From an uncultured Treponema sp. (GTDB lineage Bacteria; Spirochaetota; Spirochaetia; Treponematales; Treponemataceae): a stretch of DNA of 64,000 bases. Under the pieces are notes generated by a model, which did no database searches, was not told the origin of the DNA, and worked only from the letters and a program-made list of their open reading frames with translations. Location: contig CAMCRZ010000004.1 in the NCBI GenBank assembly GCA_945877425.1, positions 1-64,000 of the forward strand. Reading direction: 5' to 3'. Positions 2,347 to 49,682 of the stretch are shown in pieces. The translations under genes and the position numbers were made by a program. Positions within the stretch are counted from its first letter, which is position 1, and each line of letters starts with the position of its first letter.

Positions 2347-2349
2347 ACA

Positions 2350-3951
2350 ATGGACTTATGGACACCGGAAGAAAAACTCAATTATGTTTACGCCTTTATG
2401 AAATACAATAATCAAGATGTTATTCTTGATTTTTGGCAAGACGATTTTATTATGAATCGTTCGCGTTTTATTTCCTTGCTTAAATCTCGACAGACAGGCT
2501 TTTCTTTTGTCGTAGCAATAAAAGGACTTGTAAAGGCTTTAGACCCGGCTAGAACGAAATACACAAAGCAGTTTGTTTCATACAATGAAGATGACGCGCA
2601 AGAAAAAATAAGATACGCGCGCGAGTTCTATGAATCTATTCCGGACAGATACAAAAAGAAGCTGATTCACTCAACGGCTACAATGTTAGAGTTTGAGGAC
2701 ATCGGCGGTAAAACAACAAGCCGTTTAATCAGTTTGCCATGCAGACCGCCACGCGGTAAAAACGGCGATGTGTGTTTAGACGAGTTTGCAATTTATTTAC
2801 CGCGCCTTTCAAATGAGATTTATACCGCAGCGTCATTCTGTACATTGCGCCGTGGTTGTATTGAAGTCGGCTCTACTCCACTTGGTACAATCGGCAAGTT
2901 TTATGAGATATGCACGGATAAAGAAAAATACCCTAACTTTGACCGCTATTTTGTTCCCTGGTGGTATGCAAAAGTAATGTGTAAGGACGTAAAAACCGCC
3001 GTACAGATTGCGAAGGATATGCAGACAGAAGAGCGCGTTATGACATTCGGAACAGACCGCCTTATTGATATTTACAGAAACTCAACTCTTGAAGACTTTC
3101 AACAGGAATGTGAGTGCAGCTTTATTGATTCAGCAAGCAGTTATATTTCACTTGAATTGATTTTCAGTAATACACCTGGCAAGCGTGAGTGTGATGTTCC
3201 GGCAGATTCTGTAAGCGATGAAGAATATTTTTCAGAGGAAAGCAATACAGGAATAAGCATTAAAGCGTATAAAGATGTAGACGACCTTATAGCAAATTAT
3301 AAGCCGGAAGTTCACGGCTCACCTTTATTTTTGGGTTACGATGTCGGCAGAACGCATGACGCGACCGCTTTTTATATTATCGGTATGACGAAGGACGGCA
3401 AGAAACGAAGTGTTTTAAGATGTGAAATGAGAAACACGGAGTTTGAAACTCAAAAAGGCGCGTTTTGTAAACTTTATGATAATTTGCCTATTTATCGCGG
3501 CGCAATGGATAAAACAGGAATGGGCGCGAGTATTTACGAAGCTCTACAAAAACGATACGGCGACCGTATAGAAGGCGTTACCTTTACGGCGCAGTCAAAA
3601 GAGCAACTTGCAATGAGCGTAAAGTTTGGACTTGAAAAACAAGAGTTTTTGCTTGAAAACGACCGTGATTTTCATTCACAGATTCACAGTATCAAGAGAA
3701 CGGCAACGGTAGGCGGATTCAGATATGACGCTGAACGCAACGAAAAAGGACACGCCGATAGTTTTTGGGCGTGGGCGTTGGCTAATTATGCGGCCGAAGG
3801 AAAAAACAGAGTTATAAACTTTTACGACCAATGGGCAAAAAACAAAAGGCAGAGTTCTGAAATTATTCTCACCCAGGAACACGAAGGCAGCAGAGCAAGG
3901 CGCGGTAAGAGTTTACAAAGCGTCTTAAATCATTACAACAGAAGGCGGTAA
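2350..3951 (+). CDS. terminase large subunit (ATPase-nuclease)
   Basis: This is the packaging motor of 533 residues. The P-loop is the variant SRQTGFSF near residue 45, with no lysine at the usual place, as in Mu gp28-type terminases. Walker B is DVCLDEFAIY near residue 140. The C-terminal RNase H-like nuclease shows its acidic residues in FLGYDVGRTHDAT, GAMDKTGMG and GHADSFWAWALA. The motor translocates DNA into the prohead and cuts it. It sits between the small terminase and portal genes, as usual. Confidence in the family is high; the closest relative cannot be named without a search. Confidence 0.9.
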   Translation: MDLWTPEEKLNYVYAFMKYNNQDVILDFWQDDFIMNRSRFISLLKSRQTGFSFVVAIKGLVKALDPARTKYTKQFVSYNEDDAQEKIRYAREFYESIPDRYKKKLIHSTATMLEFEDIGGKTTSRLISLPCRPPRGKNGDVCLDEFAIYLPRLSNEIYTAASFCTLRRGCIEVGSTPLGTIGKFYEICTDKEKYPNFDRYFVPWWYAKVMCKDVKTAVQIAKDMQTEERVMTFGTDRLIDIYRNSTLEDFQQECECSFIDSASSYISLELIFSNTPGKRECDVPADSVSDEEYFSEESNTGISIKAYKDVDDLIANYKPEVHGSPLFLGYDVGRTHDATAFYIIGMTKDGKKRSVLRCEMRNTEFETQKGAFCKLYDNLPIYRGAMDKTGMGASIYEALQKRYGDRIEGVTFTAQSKEQLAMSVKFGLEKQEFLLENDRDFHSQIHSIKRTATVGGFRYDAERNEKGHADSFWAWALANYAAEGKNRVINFYDQWAKNKRQSSEIILTQEHEGSRARRGKSLQSVLNHYNRRR

Positions 3952-3991
3952 CAGTCGGTTTTGCGATTTTAAGGCAAGATTATTCTTAATC

Positions 3992-4020
3992 TTGAAAGAA
4001 TGGCAAAGGTATAATAATAT
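3992..4020 (+). promoter_or_regulatory. probable sigma70-type promoter before portal gene
   Basis: TTGAAA at 3992-3997 is followed after 17 bases by TAATAT at 4015-4020, inside an AT-rich TATAATAATATATA run. It lies in the 160-base gap between terminase and portal. The leader then holds an 8-bp hairpin (TTTTCTAT / ATAGAAAA) before the portal ribosome site. Confidence 0.5.
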
Positions 4021-4111
4021 ATAGGCAAGAAGAAAAATCTCTTTTAATCTGTTTTTCTATTCTGAACCATAGAAAAGCAAGTACGCAATTTATGTACAAA
4101 GGGGTTTTTCT

Positions 4112-5764
4112 ATGTTTTTTCCACAGATAGATTCAAATGTAAAACCGGTAAACTTAAAGCGCGAAATACAGAAACTTGAAAACAATCACAAGAGATTTCA
4201 GAATAATTCTACATACTTCCATGAGACAAAGACAGGTTTTCAGAGCGCATATTTTGACCCATATCTAAACGTACAAAATCAGTATGGCAACTTGCGAACG
4301 GCTGACAGAATGTTAAATCGCGAAGTAGACCCTTGGACGCTCCGCCGTGTTGCAAAAAAAGCCTGGATAATCAATATCTGTATCAAAAATGTACAGGATA
4401 GAATCAGACCATTCTTAAAGCCTTCCACAAACCGCAATTTTCGCGGTTTTGTAATTCATAAGGTTGGAGAAGATGTTATCAGTGCGGCCGGTAAAACTTC
4501 AAAAGAGAGAACGGCTATTGAAAAGTTCTTGATGAATTGCGGAACTGACAAGGATTCAGACAGAGACGATTTTCAGAGTTACTGTATTAAACTTATCCGC
4601 GATGTTCTTGAAATTGACGAAGGCGCAACAGAAATTGCATATACAAAAGGCGGTAAACCTTACGCTTTTTTTGCGGTGGACGGAGCAACAATCGAAAAAG
4701 TATTGCCCGGACAAAACAATCCTTACAACATCAAGTATGTGCAGTTAATCAATAACATTCCACAGGCATTTTTTCCGGAAGGAACGATGATTTTTGATTG
4801 TCTCAACCCTCGCTCCGATGTCCGATTCTCATTTTACGGATATTCACCGGTAGAACAGGCAATAGACCTTATCACCGCGTCAATAAACACTTTGATTTAT
4901 AATGCCGGATTCTTTACGGAAAATAAACTTCCTCGCGGTATGCTCTTACTTGACGGCAACGCTAGTCAAGAGACAGTTGAGGAAATGGAAGATTATCTTA
5001 CAGATATTATGAGCGGTTCGCCTTCAAATCAGTGGCGCGTACCTATCGTACCCGCCGGAAGTGGTAACGGTGAAAACAACTCTATCAAATGGGTGCAGCT
5101 TGGCGGAACAAACAAGGAAATGGAATATCAGAATTGGCTTGATTTCCTTATGTCCTCTATTGTTGCCCTTTTCGGCTCTTCCATTGATGAACTTGGATTG
5201 CACTCGCAGAAGTCTCAACCGGTATTTGAGCATAATAGCGCGCCGGAAATTGAAGCGTCAAAATCTTTGGTTTTAGGAAACATTCTCGGCTATTTGCAGA
5301 AACATATAAACAAGATTCTTGAAATTGTTTACCCAGGCTATGAGTTTGAGTTTGTCGGATATGAAAGAGACGACCCTAAGCAAATGGTAGACCTTGCAAA
5401 GGCTGAACTTGAATCTTACAAGACGCTGAATGAAGTCCGCAAGGAAAAGGGATTGAAACCTCTTGAAGGAAAATGGGCGGACGAATGTCCGGCAAATCCA
5501 CAGTTTACACAGATGTACCAGGCCGCAAGCGCACAGGAAGGCGGCGGAATGGAAGATATGGGAGACATGGACGGCGGAGCAAGTTTTGAAGGTGAAAGCG
5601 AAACCGAAATCGGAGCGGACGACAACGCAGAATCAAATGTTGATGAAAACGCATGGAATGAAATAGACAACGGCGGAGAAAAGCAAGAAGAAAACACCGT
5701 AGAAGGTAACGAAGAAAAGCCGGTTGAAAAATCGCTTGTAAACGCAATTACAATCAATCTTTAA
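4112..5764 (+). CDS. phage portal protein
   Basis: This 550-residue protein follows the terminase and precedes the MuF-type gene, the standard portal position. The body contains the portal-like stretch YGYSPVEQAIDLI, the helical LYNAGFFTENKLPRG segment and an SSIDELG region after it. Residues after about 460 form an acidic, Gly/Met-rich low-complexity tail. The portal forms the dodecameric ring through which DNA enters and leaves and to which the tail attaches. The start is ATG 4112, eight bases after GGGG of a modest ribosome site. The family is clear, the subfamily not. Confidence 0.85.
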   Translation: MFFPQIDSNVKPVNLKREIQKLENNHKRFQNNSTYFHETKTGFQSAYFDPYLNVQNQYGNLRTADRMLNREVDPWTLRRVAKKAWIINICIKNVQDRIRPFLKPSTNRNFRGFVIHKVGEDVISAAGKTSKERTAIEKFLMNCGTDKDSDRDDFQSYCIKLIRDVLEIDEGATEIAYTKGGKPYAFFAVDGATIEKVLPGQNNPYNIKYVQLINNIPQAFFPEGTMIFDCLNPRSDVRFSFYGYSPVEQAIDLITASINTLIYNAGFFTENKLPRGMLLLDGNASQETVEEMEDYLTDIMSGSPSNQWRVPIVPAGSGNGENNSIKWVQLGGTNKEMEYQNWLDFLMSSIVALFGSSIDELGLHSQKSQPVFEHNSAPEIEASKSLVLGNILGYLQKHINKILEIVYPGYEFEFVGYERDDPKQMVDLAKAELESYKTLNEVRKEKGLKPLEGKWADECPANPQFTQMYQAASAQEGGGMEDMGDMDGGASFEGESETEIGADDNAESNVDENAWNEIDNGGEKQEENTVEGNEEKPVEKSLVNAITINL

Positions 5765-5788
5765 GTAGATTTTTAGGACACAAACGGT

Positions 5789-7030
5789 ATGGATATTCAA
5801 ATAAACTTGACTGACATCACAGAAAACAATGCCGAAGAAAAATATAACGCGCTTGAAAAGGCGTTATGCGGTGAAAAGATTGTTTCTGTAAACAAGTCAA
5901 TGCAGAACATTAAAGAAATGAACTACTCTTCTTTAAGTCTTAATATCCGTGGAATGACACCATTAAACCGTATTACCAAAATAAACAAGGCTTTACGGAG
6001 CGCGAGTTTATCTTTGGGTGTTCCTACAAAATCGGCTAAAGGCGAAGGATTCTCTTTTAAGGCACAAGAAGAACTTACCGACAAATGGGCAAAGTTTTTC
6101 TCAAACCTTGTAAATAATACATATAATTTTGTCATTGATTATTTTAATCTTCCAAAAATAACCGTGATGTCAAAAGCGGTAAATCTTACCTGGAAGGGCA
6201 AAGTTTTATACTCACCGGAAAGCGGAGAGCCTATCACTCAAAAAGAATGGGATTTTTTCGTAAAGAATCTTGAAAAGTTCCTAAACCGCAATGTCTCAAA
6301 TGCAGCTGAAAAAATTGTTTTAGACAGTAAAGCACTAGGACATATTCTTGACCGTATGCTTAAAACAAACACTCTTGAAAACATTAAAAAACAGAATCTT
6401 GAATCGCTTAAATACAACGGAAAATCTTTTGATTGGATTGCTGATTCTGTAAAGAACATGAAAAACGCTTTTGGAGAAAGTCTTACACGACCGGAACAGG
6501 CGCGTATTACAGTTATTCAGCAGTCCGCAGCTGAAAAGATTACGCGGATTTCTGATTCAATGAAAAGCGAAGTAAAGCAGATTCTTATTGACGGCGTTAT
6601 AGACCATAAGAGCAAGTCGCAAGTCTCACAGGCACTTTTTGACAAAATGGTGAACTATAACCGCGATTTTCAAAGAGTTGCAGACACAGAAATACAAAAA
6701 ACATTCAACAATTCTTTTATCCGTGAAGAAGTCCATAACGCAGCAGAAGGCGAAAAAGTCTATTTTGAGCGCGTTGAAGTCATAGACGGCAACACTTGCC
6801 CTTACTGTAAAAAGATAAACGGCAAGATTGCAGTATGGAGCAATACGCCACTTGCAAGCGGAGTGGTAAAAGACGAATACGCAGACCTGGCTATATGGGA
6901 AGGTAAAGAATGGAACGGCAAGAAACTTGAAAAAATATCAGACGCGCCGGTATCTGTTTGCCACCCTTGGTGTCGCGGAACTTGGATAAGGTGTTATCCG
7001 GAACTTGACGGAAAAAAGCGTAAAGAGTAA
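5789..7030 (+). CDS. MuF / SPP1 gp7-type head morphogenesis protein
   Basis: The 413-residue product ends in the hallmark of the MuF family: RVADTEIQKTFNNSFIREE, then ERVEVIDGNTCPYCKKINGK with paired cysteines, then SVCHPWCRGTWIRCYP. MuF-type proteins are minor capsid proteins made in few copies, often carried inside the head and sometimes injected. It lies directly before the giant polyvalent gene; in many phages that gene is fused to MuF, whereas here it is separate. The N-terminal two thirds is helical and unremarkable. Confidence 0.85.
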   Translation: MDIQINLTDITENNAEEKYNALEKALCGEKIVSVNKSMQNIKEMNYSSLSLNIRGMTPLNRITKINKALRSASLSLGVPTKSAKGEGFSFKAQEELTDKWAKFFSNLVNNTYNFVIDYFNLPKITVMSKAVNLTWKGKVLYSPESGEPITQKEWDFFVKNLEKFLNRNVSNAAEKIVLDSKALGHILDRMLKTNTLENIKKQNLESLKYNGKSFDWIADSVKNMKNAFGESLTRPEQARITVIQQSAAEKITRISDSMKSEVKQILIDGVIDHKSKSQVSQALFDKMVNYNRDFQRVADTEIQKTFNNSFIREEVHNAAEGEKVYFERVEVIDGNTCPYCKKINGKIAVWSNTPLASGVVKDEYADLAIWEGKEWNGKKLEKISDAPVSVCHPWCRGTWIRCYPELDGKKRKE

Positions 7031-7072
7031 CGGAAAATATAAATTAAGAAATAAACAGTTGGAGGTTTATTT

Positions 7073-10000
7073 ATGGCAAAGTTTATTCTTAGATTCAGCA
7101 AGAAAGTATCTGTTGATGATTGGAATACCATAGAAAAAGCATTGTCGCATAAATACCTTAAAAAGATTGCGACAGGCAATCCAAAAAGACCCTGGTATTA
7201 CATCTACAATGAAACTTTCTTAAAGCCTTTTACGGCGTTGAAAGACTTGTTCGGACTTTCGGAGAAACGTATTTCTACCGATTACGAACAGAACAACATC
7301 AAGAAAGACTATGGCGTAGACAAGAAAACTTTTGCGGCTCATGTTTTGGAGTTCTTTACGAACAAAGACAAGTGGAATACCTTATTCAAAAATAAGGCTG
7401 ACCGCGACAAGAACAAAAAGCCGGTTACACAAAAGAAGGTTGAACAGGCGTTCAAAGAAAGAGCGTCTAAAAACGGCGAAAAGGTAAAAGAGCCTAAACG
7501 CATTATCAACCGCTCTCTTATGCGTAAAGTTTGGGAAATATATTCACCGGAAGCAAAGCAGATTCTACAGGCTGAAAAGGACGCTCCAAAAGTAGCAGAG
7601 AGAGAAAGCGAAATTGAAGCTCACGAAAACCGCAGTAATGCTATGCTTGGAAACGATAACGCTAAAAAAAATGGGGGAATAGAAAATGGCGCAGACAATT
7701 CAAATGAAACTGAGCAAGGAAGAATTTCCGAACGTGATACAGGCTTACGGAACGGCGGCCGGACAGATAGCGGCGGAAATGGCTCACAAAATGGGGATTC
7801 AGAATCCAACGGAAGTGGATTTGAACTCGATTCTAATCAATTTGGAGAGCGACTTGGCGGAACAGAATCTTCTGACGGGATTGGAGAATCCGGAGCAGTT
7901 GGAACAGGAAAACGACTGACAAAAGGCGAAATCCTTAAAATCCGCGAAGAAGTAAAGAAACTTCTTGCAACAAAGAAAGATGAAGACTTTACAGAATCAG
8001 ACAAGGCACTTTTAAGGCAGTATGAAGGCGCGGGCGGAACAGGTGAAGAAGGCGCAAGTAATAGCGGTGTTCTTTACGAGTATTACACTCCGCAGAATGT
8101 CATAAATAAAGTTTGGCAGCTTGTAGACAAATACAACCCTCGACAGGATAAGACGGTTATTGAGCCGTCAAGCGGTATTGGACGCTTTGCAGAAGGCAGA
8201 AAAGAGACTTTCACAATGTTTGAACTTGAAGAGGAATCCGCAAGAATCAATCATATTTTGCACCCGGACGCAACGATAAAACAAGGCGCGTTCCAGGAAA
8301 ACTTTATGAACGGCGGAATGTTTGCCGGAAAGAACTTTGAAAAGTTTGATGTTGCCGTAGGAAATCCGCCTTATGGACGATATAGCGGACGATATAAGGG
8401 CAAAGGCGAAGGAAAAGAACACTCGCGCTATGAAGAGTATTTTATTGACCGCACTTTAGACACTTTGAAGGACGGCGGTATTTTGGCTATGGTTGTTCCT
8501 TCCTCATTCTTGCGTAGCGGAAATACAAAGATTAAAGAGAAACTCGAAGGCAAAGGACAGTTACTTGAAGCATGGCGACTTCCTAATGGTACATTCGGAA
8601 CTACCGGCGTAGGAACTGACATTATTGTTATGCGCAAAGGAAAGGGAGAGCCTGGAAGTCTTTCAAGCGATAAGTATTTTGAATCTCACCCGGATTGTAT
8701 TATCGGAACTGAAACAGAAAGAACAGGACGGTTCGGCAATACTGAAAAATATGTGTCTATTGACGGCATGACTATTGAAGAGGCGTTAGATAAGATTAAG
8801 GTTGATTCTATACCGGTTGATAAGAGCGATATTCCTACTGTAAAGGCTGAAATTACAGAAAAGCCGGAATGGGTAGGAAAAACAATGACTGTAAACTTTA
8901 AGACCGGAAGAGTTACGCAGACCGACAAAGACGGTAATGTAAAGGTTTTAAGTGAAGGCAAGAAATCGGCAGCCGAAGAACATAAAAACCGTTCTGACGC
9001 TATGAAGGGAAACAAGAACGCGGAAGGCAAACACGAGATTACATACACAGGTAAACTCATAAGCGCGGAAGAGTTCTCAAAGACTTACGGTGTAGGCGCG
9101 TCAAGTGAAGAAATGGAAGTTTGGAAACACACCGATTACAACGGTGATATTGATATGACTAAACTTTCGGAAGAAGACAAGAAATACATCGAAAATAGCG
9201 GCCGTTATATCAAAAAAAGCAACGGAAACTATGAGAATGTCGTTACTTATGCAAGCGGTAACATTCAAGAGAAACTTGAAGCTCTTGAAGATGATTACAG
9301 AGACGACAAGGAAAATCCGGACTATCTGAAAGCAAAGACAATTCTTGAAGGCGCGTTGCCGGCAAAAAAGAACATCGGAGACTTTACACTCTCACCTATC
9401 GACCATTGGGTAAAAGAATATGATACAGGCGATGAAAAAGAATATTCTTTCAGAGGTGAAACAGTAAAAGGACTTATTGCAGATTTCTTCCGTTGGGCAA
9501 GAGACCCGGAAAACGAATACAGATACGGCAAAAGTCCAATTTCTAAGTATGAAATTCCGGAAGATATTCATTGGAGCGATGTACAAGACTATATTCTCGG
9601 CAAGAAACTTAATGTTTCCGGACAGAGAAATATGGACGAGTTTGTTAAAAAGAATCTCAACATGAGACGCAAAAACTTGCGAAAAATTACCGCTGAAAAA
9701 CTTTTCAACAGATTCTTGAAAGAAGGACTTGATAAGGAATTACAGGATAAACTCGCAAGCGACTATAACAGACAGTACAATGCGACTGTAAATCCGGACT
9801 ATTCAAAAATGCCGGTATTTGTAGACGGTATGTGCGACCATAAGGGAAGTAAAAAGTTTAAACTCTTAAAGCAGCAAATTAAGGGTATTTCCTTCCTTGC
9901 AAGCAAAGGTAGCGGCCTTCTTGCATACGATGTCGGCGTAGGAAAAACCGCGACAGGTATTGTATCAACTGTAAATCAGTTGCAGACCGGAAAGGCAAAA

Positions 10001-12532
10001 CGACCGCTTATTTGTGTACCGTCCGCAGTCTATGAAAATTGGATTCAGTCTATACATGAATTATTCCCAGGACAGGAAGTTGTAGGACTTTCCAATTTAC
10101 GCGGTAAGGCTTTGGAAGAAGCGAAAAAAGGACTTAAAGACGGCGTTTTGTATGTTTGTACTTACGAAGCTCTTGAAAAAATCGGATTCAAGCCAGAGAC
10201 AGAAGACGAACTTTATGAAGATGTAGAGTTTGCAACTGACAATCCGTTTAAGAAGGAATCTAAACGCGACAAGGCACAGGATAACGAGGACAAAGACTTT
10301 ACCGTAGGACAAATGACAAAGACCGAAGGCGATAGCGTAAACCTTGAAGACCTCGGAATAGACCATATCACGGTAGATGAAATACATAACTTCAATCATG
10401 TATTCTCTACTCCACGCATGATTTACGGCAGTAAGGAAGAAGAGGACGCAAACAAAGGCGGTGCGAATGAGTTCCAGGGAATGGGCGGAAGTATTTCAGC
10501 ACAGGCTCAAAAGATGTTTGCTATTACACAGTACATTCAGCGTCATAACAATAACCGCAATGTATTCGGACTTTCGGCAACTCCATTTACAAATAAACCG
10601 GCGGAAGTTTACTCTATTCTTTCGCTTATTGCCCGCAAGCGTTTACAGGAACTTGGCATTTATAACCTTCATCACTTCCTTGAAAAGTTTGCTGATGTGC
10701 AGCTTGATTATGTCGTAGACAGTCATAACAACGTAAAACAAGAAAATGTTATGAAGTCATATAATAATCTTGACGCATTACAGGCGCTTATTGAGGAATA
10801 TATCGACAAGGTTGACGGTGAGGAAGCCGGCGTTATCAGACCGCAGAGAGTAACTAAAACTCCATACTTGCAACAGAACGACTTGCAGAAAGTTATTATC
10901 GGTTGTGAACTTGACCGTATGGCAAACGCAAGCAAGGACGACAAGGGCGGTGTTTTGGTTGCCATGAATAACATGAGACAGGCTATTTTAAGTCCTTCTT
11001 TTGTTGCCCCGGAAAATATCGGACGCTATCAAGAATGGGCAGAAAAGAAAGGCATGAAGTTTGATGTTGAGCAGCTTAAACCGGAAAATTGTGTAGAGAA
11101 CTCACCAAAGTTGAAGTTTGTTTGCGATTCTATTATTGAACAGTGGAAACGCAATAAGACAGTCGGACAGGTTATGTATGTTCCTCGCGGTGTTGAAAAC
11201 TTTAAGTACATTAAGGAATACCTGGTAAAACACGGTTATCCGGAAGACGCAATAGGATTCATGGGTAAAGAAACAGGTAGTCCGGACAAGAGACTTAAAG
11301 AGCGTGAAACTCTCAAAAACGACTTTAACAATGTAGACGGTAAATGCAAGTTGATTATTGGCACTGAATCCATTAAGGAAGGCGTATCTTTGAACGGCAA
11401 CGCAAGCACTATTTACAACTGTATGCTTGGTTGGAATCCGACAGAGGCAACACAGGTTGAAGGTCGTATTTGGAGACAGGGAAATAAACAGGGCGTAACT
11501 GACATTGTTTATCCGCTTATGTATGACACCTTGGACGCTCGACTTTATGAACTTTATGAGCAGAAAAAAGGACGCATTGACGCTATTTTCTCTTACAAAG
11601 GCAATAAGTTGAATGTTGATGATGTGGACGCAAACGAAATGAAGTTCTCGCTTATTAAAGACCCTAAAGTAAGAGCCGGAATGGAAATCGACAGAAGAGC
11701 CGAAGAACTTAAAACAGAAATGCGAATCAACGACACTCAAAGAGACATTTTGCATGACAATAGCAACATCTTTGACCCTATCGAAGAAAATGACGAATAC
11801 AAGTTCATTGAACGCAACATCAAGGCTGAAACCGAAGAAGTAGACAAAGAAACTGTACAGGTAAGAGTTGGCAAAGACGCTATTAAGACGCTCAAAAATA
11901 AAAAAGCAACTCCGGAGCAGAAAGCAAAAGCTGCCGAAGAGTGGCTAAAAGTATCAGAGCGCGGCGGTTTTGGTTGGGGTGTAAACACTGACGAAGATAA
12001 GGCAAAGAACATTGAAAATCTTTTGAAGTGGACTGAAAGCAATCTTGCGGACACAAAAGCAAAATTGAGCAAGAACAAGAAATCTCTTGCAAAGATTAAG
12101 TATCAGCGTCAAAAGCAGATTGAAGGCTTTGAGCAACAGGGAATCCACAACAAAGAGCAGATTGAAGAGCGTATTCAGCAGCTTACACAAAGAAAAATGG
12201 AAATGAGCAACGAATACGACCACCTCAAAGACCATAGAGAAGAACTTGAAAAGAAATACACTGAACTGAACGAAAAGGAAAAACAGAATATTCCTTCTCA
12301 TGAAGAACAGGTTAAGGCTATGGTTGATTCAATTATGAGTACCGCTCGACCTATGGACGAAGTGAAACAGTGGATAATTGAAGGCAGAGAAGCCGGAAAA
12401 ACTAACGCGGAGATTAAGGACGACATAGACCGCAAAATCGGATTGAAGAAGTCTATATCTTTTGCAAAGGATTCTAAAGGCAATTTGCGACTTTATATCC
12501 GTAAAAGCACTTTATTAAAAGCAGAAATGTAG
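7073..12532 (+). CDS. giant methyltransferase-helicase polyvalent protein (DarB-like antirestriction)
   Basis: A single 1819-residue frame starts at ATG 7073 behind TTGGAGG. Residues 20-50 hold an HKYLKKIATGNPKRPWYYIY module also seen in the zeta-like protein. Residues 185-285 are a low-complexity Gly/Ser/Asn linker. An N6-adenine methyltransferase follows, with motif I VIEPSSGIGRF near 362 and catalytic NPPYGRYSG near 428. A superfamily-2 helicase comes next: GVGKTATG near 952, DEIH near 1101, LSATPF near 1166 and QVEGRIWRQGN near 1461. The C-terminus is coiled coil. P1 DarB and related proteins have this plan, ride in the virion and protect entering DNA from restriction. The role here is inferred from that. 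An AM(L/K)GNxNA motif occurs twice, on each side of the methyltransferase. Confidence 0.85.
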   Translation: MAKFILRFSKKVSVDDWNTIEKALSHKYLKKIATGNPKRPWYYIYNETFLKPFTALKDLFGLSEKRISTDYEQNNIKKDYGVDKKTFAAHVLEFFTNKDKWNTLFKNKADRDKNKKPVTQKKVEQAFKERASKNGEKVKEPKRIINRSLMRKVWEIYSPEAKQILQAEKDAPKVAERESEIEAHENRSNAMLGNDNAKKNGGIENGADNSNETEQGRISERDTGLRNGGRTDSGGNGSQNGDSESNGSGFELDSNQFGERLGGTESSDGIGESGAVGTGKRLTKGEILKIREEVKKLLATKKDEDFTESDKALLRQYEGAGGTGEEGASNSGVLYEYYTPQNVINKVWQLVDKYNPRQDKTVIEPSSGIGRFAEGRKETFTMFELEEESARINHILHPDATIKQGAFQENFMNGGMFAGKNFEKFDVAVGNPPYGRYSGRYKGKGEGKEHSRYEEYFIDRTLDTLKDGGILAMVVPSSFLRSGNTKIKEKLEGKGQLLEAWRLPNGTFGTTGVGTDIIVMRKGKGEPGSLSSDKYFESHPDCIIGTETERTGRFGNTEKYVSIDGMTIEEALDKIKVDSIPVDKSDIPTVKAEITEKPEWVGKTMTVNFKTGRVTQTDKDGNVKVLSEGKKSAAEEHKNRSDAMKGNKNAEGKHEITYTGKLISAEEFSKTYGVGASSEEMEVWKHTDYNGDIDMTKLSEEDKKYIENSGRYIKKSNGNYENVVTYASGNIQEKLEALEDDYRDDKENPDYLKAKTILEGALPAKKNIGDFTLSPIDHWVKEYDTGDEKEYSFRGETVKGLIADFFRWARDPENEYRYGKSPISKYEIPEDIHWSDVQDYILGKKLNVSGQRNMDEFVKKNLNMRRKNLRKITAEKLFNRFLKEGLDKELQDKLASDYNRQYNATVNPDYSKMPVFVDGMCDHKGSKKFKLLKQQIKGISFLASKGSGLLAYDVGVGKTATGIVSTVNQLQTGKAKRPLICVPSAVYENWIQSIHELFPGQEVVGLSNLRGKALEEAKKGLKDGVLYVCTYEALEKIGFKPETEDELYEDVEFATDNPFKKESKRDKAQDNEDKDFTVGQMTKTEGDSVNLEDLGIDHITVDEIHNFNHVFSTPRMIYGSKEEEDANKGGANEFQGMGGSISAQAQKMFAITQYIQRHNNNRNVFGLSATPFTNKPAEVYSILSLIARKRLQELGIYNLHHFLEKFADVQLDYVVDSHNNVKQENVMKSYNNLDALQALIEEYIDKVDGEEAGVIRPQRVTKTPYLQQNDLQKVIIGCELDRMANASKDDKGGVLVAMNNMRQAILSPSFVAPENIGRYQEWAEKKGMKFDVEQLKPENCVENSPKLKFVCDSIIEQWKRNKTVGQVMYVPRGVENFKYIKEYLVKHGYPEDAIGFMGKETGSPDKRLKERETLKNDFNNVDGKCKLIIGTESIKEGVSLNGNASTIYNCMLGWNPTEATQVEGRIWRQGNKQGVTDIVYPLMYDTLDARLYELYEQKKGRIDAIFSYKGNKLNVDDVDANEMKFSLIKDPKVRAGMEIDRRAEELKTEMRINDTQRDILHDNSNIFDPIEENDEYKFIERNIKAETEEVDKETVQVRVGKDAIKTLKNKKATPEQKAKAAEEWLKVSERGGFGWGVNTDEDKAKNIENLLKWTESNLADTKAKLSKNKKSLAKIKYQRQKQIEGFEQQGIHNKEQIEERIQQLTQRKMEMSNEYDHLKDHREELEKKYTELNEKEKQNIPSHEEQVKAMVDSIMSTARPMDEVKQWIIEGREAGKTNAEIKDDIDRKIGLKKSISFAKDSKGNLRLYIRKSTLLKAEM
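7686..7919 (+). CDS. possible 77-residue gene nested in the giant ORF
   Basis: In the +1 frame relative to the giant gene, an ORF starts at ATG 7686 with GGGGGAA seven bases before it. The product, beginning MAQTIQMKLSKEEFPNVIQA, has the composition of a folded helical protein. Over exactly this stretch the giant frame reads only Gly/Ser/Asn-rich low complexity, as out-of-frame readings often do. Two explanations are possible: true overprinting, or a giant gene formed when two flanking genes were joined through this small one. A run of eight A's just before it (7664-7671) could allow slippage. Confidence 0.45.
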   Translation: MAQTIQMKLSKEEFPNVIQAYGTAAGQIAAEMAHKMGIQNPTEVDLNSILINLESDLAEQNLLTGLENPEQLEQEND

Positions 12533-39960: not shown

Positions 39961-41964
39961 ATGGGAATACCAAATTTAAAATATTTCAAAAAGTCTTATA
40001 TGCTCGAATTTCTGAAAGGAGAAAAAGTTGAAAATGTATTCACTTTTTCAATTCCGCCGGAAGGAGAAGATTACGATTTTTCACAGAGACTTACCGAAAC
40101 AAAAACTTTCGGCGGTTCTGTATTTGATAGATATGGAAATGACACAATCAAAATCAATTTGAGCGGAACTACAGGAAACGAAGATAAAAAAATCATTTAC
40201 CGTGGATTTATTAAACCGCCTTTGTATCTCAACGGCGAAAAAGAGATATGGGAACTCCAAAAGGTTATTGAGGAATGGCACGATTTAAGTTCTGACACAG
40301 ACGGAACTGAAAAGACAATTTATCTTTATGACCTTTCTAAAACAAACATCGTTGATTTTGTGAAGATAAGCAGCGGCAAAACTCCGGCGACAAGGAATTA
40401 TTGGCAAGTTTTCATTAAGGACTTGAAAATCAAGCGTTCAAGTTCAAAGCCTAATTATTACAACTATTCTCTTGAAATGTTCGGACTTGTAAAAGAAAAG
40501 ACAAAACAAGGCACATGGTTTTCTTCTATTTCTGACGCAGCAAGCGCATTTACACAGGCAATGAATATCGTAGAAGGTGTAATGAGTTATACAGAAATGG
40601 CTATAGCGGCGGTTCAATCATGCACTAATGCAGTCGCAAGGGTAAAAAAAGCCTATGAAGCGTTTCAAAACATGAGTGATAGCGGAAAACTTCTTTCTGT
40701 TATGGGAATGACTGATAGCGCGACAAGAATATTAACAGGCAATTCAAGCAACACTTTTTACAACGCTACAAAAGACTGTTTAGCGATTGCAGACCAATGC
40801 AAGGGTATTTTCCGCGCTGATTATCAAGACAATTCTCAACACTCAAAGTCTCAAGATACAAGTTATTTTACTGTTTCTTTTGAAACTAACGGCGGAAGCC
40901 ATATAAACTCACAGAAAATAGAATACTCAAAGACGGCGAAAACTCCGGAAGAGCCTACGAAAAACAAATACTCTTTTGCCGGTTGGTATTCTGACGCGCA
41001 GCTTACAACCGTATTTGATTTTAACACTCCAATAACCGAAGACACTACGCTTTATGCAAAATGGGTTCAGACAGTCGCAACGGTTACTTTCAACTCAAAG
41101 AACGGCTCACGAGTGGCAAGCCAGGAAGTAACAATCGGAGAAAAAGCGACAGTTCCTACCGCTCCGACAAGAAACGGTTACATCTTCAAAGAGTGGTGTA
41201 CAGATTATGCGGCCACACAGTCTTATGACTTTGAAACTCCGGTAACAGGCGACATGACACTCTATGCGGCCTGGACTACCGTAGCAGTGGTTACATTCAA
41301 TGCAAACGGCGGAAGCGCGGTTGAATCGCAGACTGTTCAAATTAACGGAAAAGCGGTTTATCCGATAACGCCTACACGCGAGAATTACACCTTCTCTTGT
41401 TGGTGTTCTGATTCAAGCCTTGCAACCGTATTTGATTTTAACACTCCAATAACCGAAGACACTACGCTTTATGCAAAATGGGTGCAGATTTCCAATACCG
41501 TTACATTCAGAAGTAACGGCGGTTCAAGCGTTTCAAGTCAAGATGTAATGATTGGTTCATACGCGACAGAGCCGGAAGCTCCGACAAAAGAAGGTTTTGA
41601 CTTTGTTTATTGGTGTGATGATGTGGAATGTACAAATGAGTTCCATTTCAATATAACGCCGGTAACAGGAGCATTGACGCTTTATGCAAAATGGAGCGCA
41701 AAGGAAATAACGGTAACATTCGACAGTAACGGCGGTAGTTCGGTTGAATCACAGGTTATCGGTTATGGCGACAGAGCGGTATTCCCGGAGATTCCGGTTA
41801 AAGAAAACGCCGTGTTTGTCATGTGGGAAAAGGCGGAAGAAGTAGATTCCGGAGAGAAGGACGAAAACAATCAGCCTATTATGACTACGGTTTACAGTGA
41901 GTTTGATTTTGCTGATGAACTTACCGAAGACATAACTCTCTATGCTAAATGGTTTGGAGCGTAA
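39961..41964 (+). CDS. baseplate/tail protein with five InlB-type repeats
   Basis: Residues 1-185 form a phage baseplate-type domain, followed by a helical region to about 300. From residue 305 come five repeats of about 70 residues with the pattern VTFxxNGGSxVxSQ ... TLYAKW, the Listeria-Bacteroides (InlB B-repeat/Flg_new) type. Such repeats are surface adhesin-like stalks. Two of the repeats share 61 identical bases at 41006-41066 and 41423-41483, so copying was recent. The repeats may contact the host surface or lengthen a side structure. Confidence 0.75.
   Translation: MGIPNLKYFKKSYMLEFLKGEKVENVFTFSIPPEGEDYDFSQRLTETKTFGGSVFDRYGNDTIKINLSGTTGNEDKKIIYRGFIKPPLYLNGEKEIWELQKVIEEWHDLSSDTDGTEKTIYLYDLSKTNIVDFVKISSGKTPATRNYWQVFIKDLKIKRSSSKPNYYNYSLEMFGLVKEKTKQGTWFSSISDAASAFTQAMNIVEGVMSYTEMAIAAVQSCTNAVARVKKAYEAFQNMSDSGKLLSVMGMTDSATRILTGNSSNTFYNATKDCLAIADQCKGIFRADYQDNSQHSKSQDTSYFTVSFETNGGSHINSQKIEYSKTAKTPEEPTKNKYSFAGWYSDAQLTTVFDFNTPITEDTTLYAKWVQTVATVTFNSKNGSRVASQEVTIGEKATVPTAPTRNGYIFKEWCTDYAATQSYDFETPVTGDMTLYAAWTTVAVVTFNANGGSAVESQTVQINGKAVYPITPTRENYTFSCWCSDSSLATVFDFNTPITEDTTLYAKWVQISNTVTFRSNGGSSVSSQDVMIGSYATEPEAPTKEGFDFVYWCDDVECTNEFHFNITPVTGALTLYAKWSAKEITVTFDSNGGSSVESQVIGYGDRAVFPEIPVKENAVFVMWEKAEEVDSGEKDENNQPIMTTVYSEFDFADELTEDITLYAKWFGA
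41006..41483 (+). repeat. 61-bp perfect direct repeat within the InlB-type repeats
   Basis: Positions 41006-41066 and 41423-41483 are identical and 417 bases (139 codons) apart. The repeat covers the TVFDFNTPITEDTTLYAKWV end of the first and third protein repeats. It allows gain or loss of two repeat units by recombination. Confidence 0.85.
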
Positions 41965-45115: not shown

Positions 45116-47635
45116 ATGGCTAACTTTAAGACCGCTATTGCAGCGGAAAATGAAATCTTAAAAGCAACAGATGTTACTTTTGGCTACGATTCGGCAATAG
45201 ATAATATTGCCGTAGCGATGTTGGCGGTGTTGTCCGGAGCGGATAACAATTTTGTTATTGGCGGCAAGGTAACGCCTTATGGTAATGGCGGCTTGAATGT
45301 TTCTATCGCGCCTATTTTCTCTTTGAATGTGGCAAAAGAAAGCGTTGTCGCAGAAACAGAGATTACAGAGCCGGTAAGTTTTGAGGAAGCTGATTCTTCT
45401 CTTGACCGCATTGATATTGTGGAGGTGCGCGCGAAAGAAACTACCTACGATGTACAGACACGCGCTATCAATGACCCTACAAGCGGTACAAAATCATACC
45501 AGGAAATGGCAACTAAAAAGAAAATTACTCTTGAAGTTGTCGTAAAGAAGGGTTCAAACGGTTCAGCAAGCGCGCCGGCGACAGATAGCGGATTCGTAAA
45601 GATTGCGGAAGTTATCATTCCGGCGGGAACTACAAACATTACCGAAGAATTGATTAAGAACATCACCGCAAGAAAAAGCGGTGTTGAAAATGAAGATTGG
45701 ACGGCTGACAAGGATAAGACATTCAACCCTGGTTATCTTTCCGAAATCTTCTACAATTTCCTTGTTGCTCACAATGAGGACGGAAGCCATAAAAACAAGG
45801 TTATTAAATCAAATAACATTGACTTTGGAACAGGTTCGGCACAGGTTAAGGGTTCTGATATTCCTTCCGCAAGCAGTCTTACAATTCACGGCACGGACTA
45901 CGATTCACAGACAAGTCTTACCGCTCTTGTAAGCGCGCTTGTAGCCAATGTAAACGCGCTTTACGGCTATTCAAACGACATTCTTTCAAGATTCTCATTT
46001 ATTGAAGATTTGCCGGTGGCTTGTTCAACCGAAAATATTGATGTGGTTACAGGCGGCCCGGCTACTATTGACGGCATTGTGGTATCAGAAGGACAGTTGG
46101 TTTTCTTGAAAAATCAGACCAACGCAAAGGAAAACGGACTTTGGGAAGTTCAGTCCGGAGCATGGAACAGATATACAGGTTATACCGCTGACAACTCCAT
46201 GACACACAAGTTTATTGTCATTACCGCCGGAACTACAAATAAGGGCAAGATTTTCTACCTTAACGGTGATTCTTACACCTTGGGAACAAGCGAACTCAAT
46301 TTTGTTGAAAGCAAACTTTCCTACAACCTTTTGCCTTTTACATTTATGGTTCGCGACAAGTTTGGACGCGCTAAAGTCGCAGCTCCAAAAGACGAAGACG
46401 ACATCGCGCGTTATTATGAAGTTCACCGCGAACTTGCAAGAAATAGCGGAACAAATGGCGTTGGTTTTCCATTCGGTAAAGAGCGTTTCTTGACTTTTGA
46501 TTTTGCGGACAGTGCGCATAAGTCATTGAAAATCAAAAAAGACACTCATCTCCGACTTGACATCATTGCAGACGGCGTAACAGAAAAGCGTTGGTTCGAT
46601 GTAGACGCAGATACAGTATTCGATGTATCAACAGATATGCAGACCGCGGCTGACGCAAGTTCTACAAGAACAGGACAGTTAAACGGACGCGATTACTTTG
46701 TTTACCTTGTGCCGGAAGGAACAGGCGTTAAACTTGTTGTTTCTTGCAATTCAACATATCCTAACGATATTGACGCAAATTACAATGCAAACAACACACG
46801 CAAAATCGGACAGTTCTCTACATTGTGCGTAGACGCGGGCGATTCTTTACAGGGAAAAATTGCAGCAGCTCCGGGAACAGAGACCGTCGGCGGAAAGTAT
46901 TTGCTCAAACAGTATGACGCTGACGATGAAGACGGATTCTACGACTTCTATAACAAAAACATTGTTTCCGTTACAACAGGAACTTACTACGATGTTCTTG
47001 TCGTAGAACACCCGCTTGCCGGTTTCAAAGCCGGAGACATCTTGCCTGAATCTGTATGGTGTTTGTCTTTTAGACCTCATTCAGACGGCGCGGGAATGGT
47101 TTATGATGTAGACACTGACATTGCAGCCGACATTTACTTGCAGAGCGGTAAAGGAAAGTTGACATCAAGCGTTTACGGCGGAACAATCACCGATAAAAGA
47201 CCTCAGCAGAATCACCAGGACGACATGAGACAGGTAAGAAAGCGTCTTTTGTTTGATAACGAGTTTGCAAGCATTGCAAGCGGTTCTAACGAAGGCACTA
47301 ACATCTACGGTTCAGCAGACCCTGGAACTACCGGCGGACACAAAGATACCGCTAAAAGACGCATGATTTCCTTTATCGGTTGTGAAGACTGTTGCGGCGC
47401 TATGTGGCAGTGGGCAGAAGATTGCGGCCCGGCGGGCGGAAGTGGAGCTTCTGTATATGACGGACAGGGCAACTTCGGTAAGATGTATGGAACTTGCTAT
47501 GGCTTGCTTTTCGGCGGTGCTTGGAATTTTGCGGCGGGTTGCGGTTCTCGCAGTTGCGATGCGGTTAGTGCGCGGTCGGGTGCGGATGACAATCTCGGCG
47601 GACGCGGTGCGAGCCGAGTTGTCCGCAGAGCGTAA
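45116..47635 (+). CDS. DGR target: receptor-binding tail protein with C-type-lectin-like tip
   Basis: The 839-residue protein ends the tail operon. The N-terminal 400 residues are beta-rich fibre-like sequence. The last 120 or so residues have the C-lectin/formylglycine-type pattern used by DGR targets: ISFIGCEDCCGAMWQWAEDC, then the variable segment from residue 796 (GLLFGGAWNF) to about 832, and a short tail. VR codons sit where the template has AAT. Diversified sites would be at the ligand surface. It would recognise the host receptor; the receptor is unknown. Confidence 0.9.
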   Translation: MANFKTAIAAENEILKATDVTFGYDSAIDNIAVAMLAVLSGADNNFVIGGKVTPYGNGGLNVSIAPIFSLNVAKESVVAETEITEPVSFEEADSSLDRIDIVEVRAKETTYDVQTRAINDPTSGTKSYQEMATKKKITLEVVVKKGSNGSASAPATDSGFVKIAEVIIPAGTTNITEELIKNITARKSGVENEDWTADKDKTFNPGYLSEIFYNFLVAHNEDGSHKNKVIKSNNIDFGTGSAQVKGSDIPSASSLTIHGTDYDSQTSLTALVSALVANVNALYGYSNDILSRFSFIEDLPVACSTENIDVVTGGPATIDGIVVSEGQLVFLKNQTNAKENGLWEVQSGAWNRYTGYTADNSMTHKFIVITAGTTNKGKIFYLNGDSYTLGTSELNFVESKLSYNLLPFTFMVRDKFGRAKVAAPKDEDDIARYYEVHRELARNSGTNGVGFPFGKERFLTFDFADSAHKSLKIKKDTHLRLDIIADGVTEKRWFDVDADTVFDVSTDMQTAADASSTRTGQLNGRDYFVYLVPEGTGVKLVVSCNSTYPNDIDANYNANNTRKIGQFSTLCVDAGDSLQGKIAAAPGTETVGGKYLLKQYDADDEDGFYDFYNKNIVSVTTGTYYDVLVVEHPLAGFKAGDILPESVWCLSFRPHSDGAGMVYDVDTDIAADIYLQSGKGKLTSSVYGGTITDKRPQQNHQDDMRQVRKRLLFDNEFASIASGSNEGTNIYGSADPGTTGGHKDTAKRRMISFIGCEDCCGAMWQWAEDCGPAGGSGASVYDGQGNFGKMYGTCYGLLFGGAWNFAAGCGSRSCDAVSARSGADDNLGGRGASRVVRRA
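47500..47612 (+). repeat. DGR variable repeat (VR)
   Basis: This 113-base repeat at the 3' end of the tail-protein gene aligns without gaps to the template at 47776-47888. Fifteen differences fall at template adenines (VR positions 47519, 47520, 47528, 47529, 47537, 47538, 47558, 47564, 47565, 47568, 47579, 47580, 47582, 47585, 47594). One is C-to-T at 47555. The last 18 bases are identical and GC-rich, the expected initiation-of-homing end. Confidence 0.95.
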
Positions 47636-47714
47636 ACCGTCAATCGTTACTCGGACGCAAAATTGGAGACAGAATCCTAAGTGTGTTTGAGTAGCGGTTT
47701 TGTAGTGGAAATAT

Positions 47715-47746
47715 CCTTATTGCGGAGCGACAGTTCCGCAATAAGG
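47715..47746 (+). other. perfect 12-bp hairpin between VR and TR
   Basis: CCTTATTGCGGA (47715-47726) pairs fully with TCCGCAATAAGG (47735-47746) over an 8-base loop. DGRs often need a hairpin or cruciform after VR for efficient target recognition. This one lies about 100 bases past VR, farther than in the best-known case. It could also be an ordinary transcript-end structure, though no T-run follows. Confidence 0.7.
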
Positions 47747-47775
47747 TTAATATTTTAGGTTAAGGGTTGAATTAT

Positions 47776-47888
47776 TGGCTTGCTTTTCGGCGGTAATTGG
47801 AATAATGCGGCGAATTGCGGTTCTCGCAGTCGCAATGCGAATAATGCGCGGTCGAATACGAATGACAATATCGGCGGACGCGGTGCGA
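47776..47888 (+). repeat. DGR template repeat (TR)
   Basis: The TR keeps an open frame matching VR and holds ten AAT codons, eight of which are changed in VR. AAT is the usual DGR template codon, because adenine mutagenesis of it cannot create a stop. About 160 bases separate it from the RT start, a spacer length similar to that needed for cDNA synthesis in the model DGR. The gap from 47636 to 48048 holds no gene, only the hairpins and the TR. Confidence 0.95.
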
Positions 47889-47949
47889 TACGGAATATGT
47901 CAATGTAAACTCCTATACAGGTGCGACAACTCCGGCTGAATCCTTGACC

Positions 47950-48035
47950 TTGGCGGAACGCCAAAACACAAAAAGGAGTGGTAGGACAGTTAGTAGCCTG
48001 AAACGGCAAATATTGCCCTATCAATATTTTTTTTT
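47950..48035 (+). terminator. hairpins and T-run between TR and RT
   Basis: TTGGCG/CGCCAA (47950-47964) is a small stem. AATATTG (48009-48015) pairs with CAATATT (48022-48028) and runs into nine T's, just before the RT ribosome site TTAGGA. It may set the 3' end of the template RNA and lower RT expression. Confidence 0.65.
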
Positions 48036-48048
48036 AGGAATTGAAAAA

Positions 48049-49056
48049 ATGAAGTCTTACGGTGGAAATTTATTTGAATCCATAGTAGAAAAAGACAATT
48101 TTATAGTCGCGCAAAAGTTATCGAGACAGGGAAAATCGAACAGAAAAGAAATTAAGATTTTTGAAGCGAATCTTGATAAAAACCTGGAAGAAGTTCGGCA
48201 GCTTGTTATAGACAAAAAGTTTCATACGGCAAAATACAGAAGCAAGAAGATATTTGAGCCAAAAGAAAGAATCATTTACATCTTGCCATACGCTCCGGAT
48301 AGGATTGTGCAACACGCAATTATGAATATCTTAGTTCCTTACATGGAAAGGATGTTTATTGCTGACAGTTACGCTTGCATTACAGGGAGAGGACAAACTA
48401 GAGCAAGTTTAAGAACTATGCAAGCGGTAAGAAGAAATAAGTATTGCTTAAAATGCGATATTCACCACTTTTACCCTTCTATCAATCAGAATATTTTATC
48501 ACAGATGTATCATAAAAAGTTTAGAGACAAGGACTTTTTATATCTAATGGACGACATTATTTTTAGTTTTCCCGGCGGTTATAACTGTCCTATTGGCAAT
48601 TATACAAGCCAATGGAACGGCAATTTTTACCTCACTCCGCTTGACGAATTTTGCAAGCATGAATTGAAAATAAAAGATTATATACGTTATTGCGATGATT
48701 TCTTATTATTTGGAGATGATAAGTCTTATTTGCATGAGTGCAGAAAGCGCATTGAGGATTTTATTGGAAAATATGAATTGACGTATTCAAAGGCTGACGT
48801 ATTCAGTGTAAAGCAAGGTATTGATTTTTGCGGTTACCGGCATTTTGACAATTATATTTTATTGCGAAAATCTACCGCGAAAAAAGAAATAAAACGCTTA
48901 AAAGAACTTCCTGGAGAGTTTGAAAGCGGTTTAATTACAAAGGATAAAATGCGCTCTACAATCGACAGTATGATAGGTTGGCAGAAACACGCCAATACTC
49001 ATAACTTACAGATTGCAACGGACATAGATTTTATAAGGAGAAAATATTGTGCTTAA
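48049..49056 (+). CDS. DGR reverse transcriptase
   Basis: I choose ATG 48049, with TTAGGA 14 bases before it, over the TTG at 47944; this gives 335 residues, typical for DGR enzymes. Landmarks are LKCDIHHFYPSI near residue 136, the DGR-type motif IGNYTSQWNGNFYL near 182, and the catalytic IRYCDDFLLFG near 214. The SQ in the second motif separates DGR RTs from group II intron and retron enzymes. No maturase or endonuclease domain follows. It copies the TR RNA into error-prone cDNA that replaces VR. The stop overlaps the next gene. Confidence 0.95.
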   Translation: MKSYGGNLFESIVEKDNFIVAQKLSRQGKSNRKEIKIFEANLDKNLEEVRQLVIDKKFHTAKYRSKKIFEPKERIIYILPYAPDRIVQHAIMNILVPYMERMFIADSYACITGRGQTRASLRTMQAVRRNKYCLKCDIHHFYPSINQNILSQMYHKKFRDKDFLYLMDDIIFSFPGGYNCPIGNYTSQWNGNFYLTPLDEFCKHELKIKDYIRYCDDFLLFGDDKSYLHECRKRIEDFIGKYELTYSKADVFSVKQGIDFCGYRHFDNYILLRKSTAKKEIKRLKELPGEFESGLITKDKMRSTIDSMIGWQKHANTHNLQIATDIDFIRRKYCA

Positions 49057-49348
49057 ATTCAGCGAGTTTGTAGAAGATGATGAAAAACCTATTGAAGGTG
49101 AGAAAGTCTCAATTACCAACATTTTGAACAAGGAAATTGTCATAACAAAATACAAAGTCCGAAATTCAAAATATAAAGACCGTTGCGACAAATGCGCCAC
49201 GGTTCAGTTTTACGAAGAATCTGACGAAAGAAAACGTATTTTCTTTACAGGTAGCGCGGTTATTATTGAGCAGCTTGAAAAATATGGCGAAAAAATACCG
49301 TTTATGACTACCGTAACGAAGATTGATAAATATTTTACTTTAACATAA
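49049..49348 (+). CDS. small OB-fold-like protein coupled to the RT
   Basis: GTG 49049 follows AAGGAG and overlaps the end of the RT gene. The 99-residue product has KDRCDKCATVQFYEESDERK with a CxxC, then FFTGSAVIIEQLEKYGEKIP and VTKIDKYFTL. This is a beta-rich pattern found in small single-strand-binding-like phage proteins. It could hold cDNA or template RNA. It is not similar by eye to the helical Avd. The role in the DGR is an inference from coupling. Confidence 0.6.
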   Translation: MLKFSEFVEDDEKPIEGEKVSITNILNKEIVITKYKVRNSKYKDRCDKCATVQFYEESDERKRIFFTGSAVIIEQLEKYGEKIPFMTTVTKIDKYFTLT

Positions 49349-49367: not shown

Positions 49368-49682
49368 ATGAGAGGTTTTCCAACAGTATTTGCGACAAAA
49401 CAGGATTACATAAACTGTATGTCTATGTACCCGGAAGAAACAAAAAGAGCATTAAGACGGTTGCTTGCAGACCGTTTTAATTGGGAAAAGGTAAAGGAAC
49501 TTTCCTCAAAAAGCAAGGGCAAGGAAGATTCTACCCATGCAATAATCGCACAGGAAAGGACTGACGAAAAAACAGGCGAAAAAATTGAATATTTCGTGCA
49601 GCTTGAAAAGAAAGAGGATTCAAATGCACGTCTTTTTCAACTTGGTTTTACCGTAAAGGAAGTGGAAGGACTTATAAAATAA
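49368..49682 (+). CDS. 104-residue DGR-adjacent protein
   Basis: ATG 49368 follows AAGGGAG. The product begins MRGFPTVFATKQDYINCMSM, then has DRFNWEKVKELSSKSKGKED and ends LFQLGFTVKEVEGLIK. I recall similar proteins near DGR reverse transcriptases but cannot confirm this. It closes the RT operon before a new promoter. Confidence 0.55.
   Translation: MRGFPTVFATKQDYINCMSMYPEETKRALRRLLADRFNWEKVKELSSKSKGKEDSTHAIIAQERTDEKTGEKIEYFVQLEKKEDSNARLFQLGFTVKEVEGLIK

Follow-up and report, generated by a model that had tools for sequence, protein, structure and literature searches.

Which protein partners the reverse transcriptase (RT) of a diversity-generating retroelement (DGR) in which none of the known helpers is found? 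The question is raised by a locus within a 64,000-nucleotide stretch of DNA from an uncultured Treponema sp. (positions 1 to 64,000 of contig CAMCRZ010000004.1, assembly GCA_945877425.1), referred to here as the window. Phage DGRs that act on Mtd-like tail proteins are a known sort of system, and the less expected part of this one is the lineage of its candidate helper, a small protein resembling the oligonucleotide/oligosaccharide-binding (OB) fold. Our preferred reading, to which we give a probability of roughly 0.8, is that the locus is a complete DGR in a contractile-tailed spirochaete prophage, and that it uses the OB-like protein instead of Avd or an HRDC protein. That reading is built computationally on the anatomy of the cassette, on adenine-only turnover of the variable repeat in relatives, on a helper family restricted to DGRs and in one instance fused to the RT, on a covarying RNA, and on searches in which no known helper was found. 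Loci used for comparison are cited by L numbers, and contigs of the window's own genome by C numbers. The principal components are as follows.

45116..47635, + strand: DGR target gene, 839 aa, Mtd-like receptor-binding tail protein (Pfam Mtd_2nd, phrog_11262, solved Mtd structures)
47500..47612, + strand: variable repeat (VR), from a direct-repeat search; variation in near-identical relatives lies almost solely at sites of template adenines
47776..47888, + strand: template repeat (TR), from a direct-repeat search; identical in the relatives L028 and L039 despite their differing VRs
47915..48040, + strand: conserved structured spacer RNA between TR and RT (covariation; covariance model)
48049..49056, + strand: DGR RT, 335 aa, starting at ATG 48049 (IGNYTSQ and YCDD motifs, phrog_1423, tree, structure 8ub7)
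49049..49348, + strand: OB-like candidate DGR helper, 99 aa, GTG start, sharing 8 nt with the end of the RT gene (family alignment, AlphaFold2 (AF2) model, association tests, fusion in L056, purifying selection)

The cassette and its candidate helper

The repeat pair is an ungapped 113-nt direct repeat (47500-47612 and 47776-47888) with 86% identity. Fifteen of the 16 mismatches are at adenines of the TR (10 A>G, 3 A>T and 2 A>C) and the remaining one is C>T, an adenine bias with a hypergeometric p of 6.1e-11 for a TR with 26 A among 113 positions; eight of ten AAT codons are changed between TR and VR. The final 18 bases of both copies are identical and GC-rich, terminating in GGCGGACGCGGTGCGA. 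The ungapped alignment, the 15 of 16 adenine differences, the changed AAT codons and the identical GC-rich end had been given in a preliminary description of this DNA, and the direct-repeat search and recounts agree with it on all four. The window holds no additional TR/VR pair, and a genome-wide search gave no third copy of the repeat. An inverted repeat at the VR end (47594-47630) folds weakly (7 of 200 shuffles are equally good) and was not seen in L025 or L028, so we do not claim a cis hairpin there.

The VR encodes the C-terminus of the 839-aa target. This protein matches Pfam Mtd_2nd (E 9e-8) and the tail protein family phrog_11262 (E 5e-38), and its profile aligns with the solved Mtd structures 1yu0-1yu4 and 2iou (E 1e-20), extending through the C-terminal lectin domain. 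The AF2 prediction of the C-terminus, from 13 alignment rows, has a predicted local distance difference test score (pLDDT) of 20-40 in the lectin part, and the evidence for the fold is therefore the sequence profile to Mtd, which makes the target C-type-lectin-like, with the VR at the 3' end of its gene. The Mtd homology and the location after the baseplate genes support the earlier proposal that this is the receptor-binding tip, and the phage may thus be able to switch host or receptor.

The preliminary description ended the element at 49056, with the RT, but it continues beyond this point and includes the ORF (open reading frame) at 49049-49348. Small ORFs lie near the RT, mostly directly behind it, in all viral RT relatives down to 55% identity. 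A profile of the OB family matched 26 fetched loci as well as the window, all of them DGR loci, and it had no match in 39 further RT loci from outside the window's clade. That clade is defined in a tree of 65 RTs, where the window RT groups among TR/VR-bearing RTs in a set of 25 members (support 100/99); the OB gene is present in 23 of these and outside the clade solely in ANMV-1, a distribution requiring 4 label changes compared with a shuffled mean of 19.9. The two members without it are L058, whose sequence stops 147 nt behind the RT, and L053, which truly has none.

Searches that did not start from the RT give a similar picture. Viral contigs sought through the OB family alone yielded 35 loci, with an RT adjoining in 33; the remaining two have a DGR-type target upstream and no RT, and look like decayed cassettes. 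Scanning 987 genomes regardless of RT returned six OB matches, three in the centre genomes and three new: one beside an intact RT, one beside a co-decayed RT and one in a DGR remnant. In whole genomes, each DGR of the window clade has one copy of the family and none lies elsewhere, and across the loci and genomes searched it was found only in DGR contexts or decayed cassettes. L118 (3906-4729, - strand) carries a deletion remnant in which the VR-like LLGGNWSNGA is joined directly to the C-terminal half of the OB protein, the RT being gone.

The arrangement of the two genes varies. The OB gene lies upstream of the RT in L038, L057 and L121, the place of Avd in other DGRs, and L056 has an in-frame fusion of the OB domain to the RT C-terminus. 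Viral RT proteins were among the BFVD matches of the OB model, a hint of further fusions, but in the one tested, crAss-like cr7_1, the RT extends past its catalytic part with no OB match, and L056 is accordingly the sole fusion claimed. Values of dN/dS for the OB gene are 0.03-0.12 in most pairs with measurable dS and 0.37 in one, and by these sequence-based estimates the gene is under purifying selection. RT and OB distances are correlated (r 0.62, with 0 of 5000 permutations as high), which could be explained by shared ancestry alone.

Known helpers were sought by profile. The bAvd model PF22296, used since NF033474 (Avd) gave no match anywhere, found nothing in the window's genome or in the clade virus records, including the 38-kb ANMV-1 and the 60-kb circular Methanosarcinales virus vir525, and it did match BPP-1 (E 2e-37) and the Avd-type control loci. 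There are bAvd matches elsewhere in a few metagenome-assembled genomes (MAGs) with clade members, that in the L050 MAG being on another contig. PMC10053308 names HRDC and MutS_I as the other helpers, and neither was found in the same virus records; HRDC matches in the window's genome are on C15 and in a second DGR on C7, described below. A literature search found no relevant DGR helper described as OB-fold, oligonucleotide-binding or single-stranded-DNA-binding. PMC10053308 mentions that an earlier survey (its reference 12) suggested one more helper without a Pfam or CDD family. The OB family may be that helper. The survey is presumably that of Wu et al. 2018.

The 99-aa protein has no match in Pfam or NCBIfam, and its sole match is phrog_19665, of 'unknown function'. 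An AF2 model built with 12 homologues has a pLDDT of 90 and the element order beta-beta-beta-alpha-beta-beta, which is the OB strand order, and comparison of the model with the PDB returns OB domains among others (the RuvBL2 insert, SSB, Teb1, LEF-3 and POT1) at Z 5-7. Because of its diversity the family alignment (A3) did not lend itself to a pattern scan, and single members were used as queries; a sequence search of the family against the PDB gave nothing significant.

Several points weigh against assigning the role of helper to an OB protein. The best VIA comparison of the model reaches Z 6.9, and Foldseek gives no PDB match below E 0.1; the fold rests on a predicted model and is suggestive only, and nucleic-acid binding, read from the topology, is a guess. 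The protein has an isoelectric point between 5.2 and 9.3 and is not clearly basic, unlike Avd, which is basic. Conservation of the OB gene beside the RT could reflect a shared tail module, and L053 is a clade member with no OB gene. Little weight can be put on helpers missing from virus records that are fragments, but for ANMV-1, vir525 and the window's genome the searches covered all of the available sequence.

An alternative is an ordinary BPP-1-like DGR in which the OB ORF is a hitchhiker without a part in mutagenesis, for example a tail-module or single-strand-binding gene, with an Avd equivalent supplied by the host or not needed. L053 would fit, keeping as it does the spacer RNA, RT and target without OB, and so would a second small ORF (49368-49682, about 104 aa, unknown function), which follows the OB gene, accompanies the cassette in many loci and has the look of a tail-module passenger. 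This second ORF also occurs in the distant DGR phages L051, L053, L054, L059, L076, L118 and L140. It was considered as a DGR component and rejected, as L031, L032 and L034-L037 do not have it behind the RT; it is possibly a tail-module gene. The OB gene, however, is retained in loci with other neighbours or without the 104-aa ORF (L031, L032, L034-L037, L050 and ANMV-1), it switches sides of the RT, it forms one reading frame with the RT in L056 and it was not found outside DGR contexts, nor was bAvd found in the host genome. We therefore regard a hitchhiking OB ORF as unlikely, and prefer a cassette in which the OB-like protein is a working part.

Activity of the element and identity of the RT

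Near-identical relatives provide a record of recent VR change. L028 and L039, which share 99.2% identity along 12.1 kb, differ at 14 of 24 VR sites facing template adenines but at 1 of 89 other VR sites and 0 of 113 TR positions; the remaining sequence has 77 differences in 11,881 positions. The corresponding figures for L126 and L127 are 17 of 26, 1 of 88, 0 of 114 and 2 of 4,372; outside the repeats, these two pairs are 99.2-99.95% identical. L146 and L148, near kin of an archaeal virus, differ at 18 of 36 adenine sites, 0 of 80 other VR sites and 0 of 116 TR positions. The same VR is kept in the near-identical pairs L036/L037 and L149/L152. An invariant VR in related prophages had been named at the outset as evidence against a DGR; the VRs of L028/L039 and L126/L127 are not invariant and differ at adenine sites, and the DGRs of these relatives are, to judge from such comparisons, active. 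We also note a 6-base in-frame insertion in the L039 VR (5438-5556) relative to its own TR, inside a repeated GCGAAT/ACGAAT stretch, which could be due to RT slippage.

A further point counts against the preferred reading, which is that one VR sequence is known for the window prophage, and the signs of activity come from relatives of which the nearest has about 75% RT identity. The element might thus be decayed and inactive here, with a VR frozen from past rounds, as the single non-adenine difference among the 16, the pairs with unchanged VRs and the decayed family cassettes L116 and L118 would allow. We consider this improbable, as the RT and OB frames are open, the catalytic motifs are intact, the TR and the ends resembling an initiation of mutagenic homing (IMH) site are preserved, and close relatives are active; the window cassette is, on this evidence, apparently working.

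The RT itself matches phrog_1423 at E 4e-97 and contains both of the motifs previously pointed out, IGNYTSQ and YCDD. IGNYTSQ is a DGR-type motif 4, DGR RTs having the pattern (I/V/L)GxxxSQ. The closest solved RT is 8ub7 (E 1e-50, 176 bits), a 328-aa entry named 'Reverse transcriptase', which from this length and name we take to be the BPP-1 DGR RT; the best group II RT scores 75 bits, and this comparison does not bear out the clustering with group II intron or retron enzymes that had been named at the outset as counter-evidence. A group II intron, retron or defence RT lying beside a chance repeat can be dismissed, since the top NCBIfam models, group_II_RT_mat and retron St85, score far below their cut-offs (86.5 against 300 and 54.4 against 235), and the DGR-type motif, the similarity to 8ub7 and an adenine bias (p 6e-11) that recurs in most relatives all argue otherwise. 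The identification of the system as a DGR thus stands, on its TR and VR, RT family and motif, Mtd-like target and, in near-identical relatives, VR-only and adenine-only variation. The earlier annotation of the RT holds for its end (49056) and probably not for its start, TTG 47944 (370 aa): ATG 48049 (335 aa) is the most likely start because the TTG extension overlies the conserved structured RNA and close homologues begin at the ATG position.

Spacer RNA, prophage and host

The spacer between TR and RT has the following helices, and another hairpin lies between the target gene and the TR.

47930-47933/47975-47978, + strand: spacer RNA helix, CUCC/GGAG
47950-47954/47960-47964, + strand: spacer RNA hairpin, UUGGC-GGAA-GCCAA
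47981-47990/48012-48021, + strand: long spacer RNA hairpin, ten pairs, loop with a GUA(G) motif
47715..47746, + strand: strong hairpin between target gene and TR (z -7.1; 0 of 200 shuffles as stable)

Covariation in the spacer amounts to 44 cells changed on both sides, compared with 14.5 +/- 2.9 on shuffling, and 90.8% of cells are paired, compared with at most 56% when partners are slid. The covariance model R1, built from twelve loci, places the RNA identically in ten independent clade loci (E <= 6e-10) and in 18 of the 22 loci found through the OB family, and an Rfam scan of the window gave no match, the spacer RNA included. L006, an Avd-type DGR in a spirochaete genome of the same taxonomic order, has a weak R1 match at the same place (1368-1483, E 4e-5, 24 bits). 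The RNA could therefore have arisen before the OB clade. The hairpin at 47715-47746 is a probable terminator of the target transcript.

A Baseplate_J gene precedes the target, and upstream there are also terminase, portal, capsid and contractile sheath genes. Beyond about 52.7 kb, on the same 131-kb contig, there are chromosomal genes (M23 peptidase, glycerophosphotransferase and GreA/GreB). Since head, sheath and baseplate genes of a phage are found on one contig together with chromosomal genes, the carrier is read as a contractile-tailed prophage, with its left end beyond the contig edge, and the three FlaA genes in the genome speak for a spirochaete as host; a complete VR-TR-RT system in a spirochaete prophage is as first described. 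Misassembly of the metagenome bin is a possible source of the joined contig. By our own reading the gene at about 52.7 kb is transposase-like; it has no Pfam match. Among other genes of the window, 7073-12532 encodes a 1819-aa protein that reads as a fused methyltransferase/helicase, and 39961-41964 a protein with tandem repeats of the FxxNGGSxVxSQxV type.

L033 (261-1563) has one TR with at least three tandem VRs upstream, showing mostly adenine changes, and is a multi-target phage DGR; L030 has a second Mtd-like gene downstream.

Proposed mechanism and comparison with known systems

A plausible scenario, by analogy with BPP-1, is that the TR and structured spacer are transcribed together and the transcript is bound by an RT complex, which would copy the TR into cDNA starting near the TR 3' end and misincorporate at adenines. 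The cDNA would then replace the VR at the 3' end of the Mtd-like gene, guided by the identical GC-rich 3' end, and progeny phages would thereby have different receptor-binding surfaces and possibly an altered receptor range. The OB-like protein would take Avd's place in priming or homing by binding to the RT, to the spacer RNA or to cDNA as it forms, and would presumably be needed for mutagenesis. To our knowledge, Avd is essential in the one DGR whose biochemistry has been studied in depth, and the explanation given for adenine mutagenesis involves RT and Avd jointly. If the scenario is correct, apparently active DGRs that have another small partner in place of Avd, even one fused to the RT, would reveal the helper's real contribution, and a more compact RT-helper in a single chain might become available for targeted mutagenesis in the laboratory. 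The wider proposition is that these cassettes form a DGR type, undescribed as such and widespread in viruses of bacteria and archaea, in which an OB-like and possibly single-strand-binding protein, at times fused to the RT, replaces Avd and HRDC and acts together with a conserved spacer RNA; this would be one more biochemical route to mutagenic retrohoming, and we regard the proposition as evenly balanced. It would give a testable role to 'hypothetical' genes that adjoin RTs in archaeal viruses.

The window cassette resembles that of BPP-1 (mtd/avd/TR/brt, NC_005357) in the order target (with VR), TR and RT, in its adenine-directed differences and in having a TR-RT spacer, and the target is homologous to Mtd and the RTs to one another. 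It differs in that avd lies between mtd and the TR in BPP-1, whereas the window has no avd and has an OB-like ORF behind the RT; R1 also gives no match to the BPP-1 spacer.

Closer in arrangement are the archaeal viruses ANMV-1 (KP703175) and vir525 (BK063673), each with an Mtd-like target and an RT followed immediately by an OB-like ORF (AJP62065.1 and DBA35194.1, respectively, both annotated 'hypothetical protein'). They share with the window the failure to find bAvd and differ from it in their archaeal hosts; moreover, the RT of ANMV-1 sits on a long branch outside the window clade, and no clear spacer RNA was detected in that virus with R1. A figure in PMC4372165 labels an Avd ORF in the ANMV-1 cassette, and according to its legend Avd-like ORFs were marked by size and isoelectric point between the RT and target, which is not the ORF behind the RT.

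The chromosomal DGR of Treponema denticola (TvpA; PMC4891356) is likewise adenine-directed and from a spirochaete, but an HRDC helper lies between its TR and RT, its targets are numerous lipoproteins, and its locus is free of phage genes. The contrast drawn at first between the window element and the treponemal chromosomal type thus holds for T. denticola, and the window's own genome contains an HRDC-bearing DGR as well. This second element (L119; C7, 2221-7975) has an RT of another clade (2221-3192, - strand), a TR at 3346-3526, an HRDC protein (3566-4099, - strand) and a 934-aa target with an FGE-sulfatase domain (5171-7975, - strand) containing the VR (5180-5360); its 181-bp TR and VR differ at 27 positions, all 27 at template adenines. 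Since this host has a chromosomal DGR of the HRDC type and a phage DGR of the OB type, the two could be compared within one cell.

Among the phage DGR lineages surveyed by Roux et al. 2021 (PMC8144416), six RT clades are distinguished, and the words 'accessory' and 'avd' are absent from the main text. Those DGRs, which are active in nature, resemble the window element in being virus-encoded and in acting on tail proteins.

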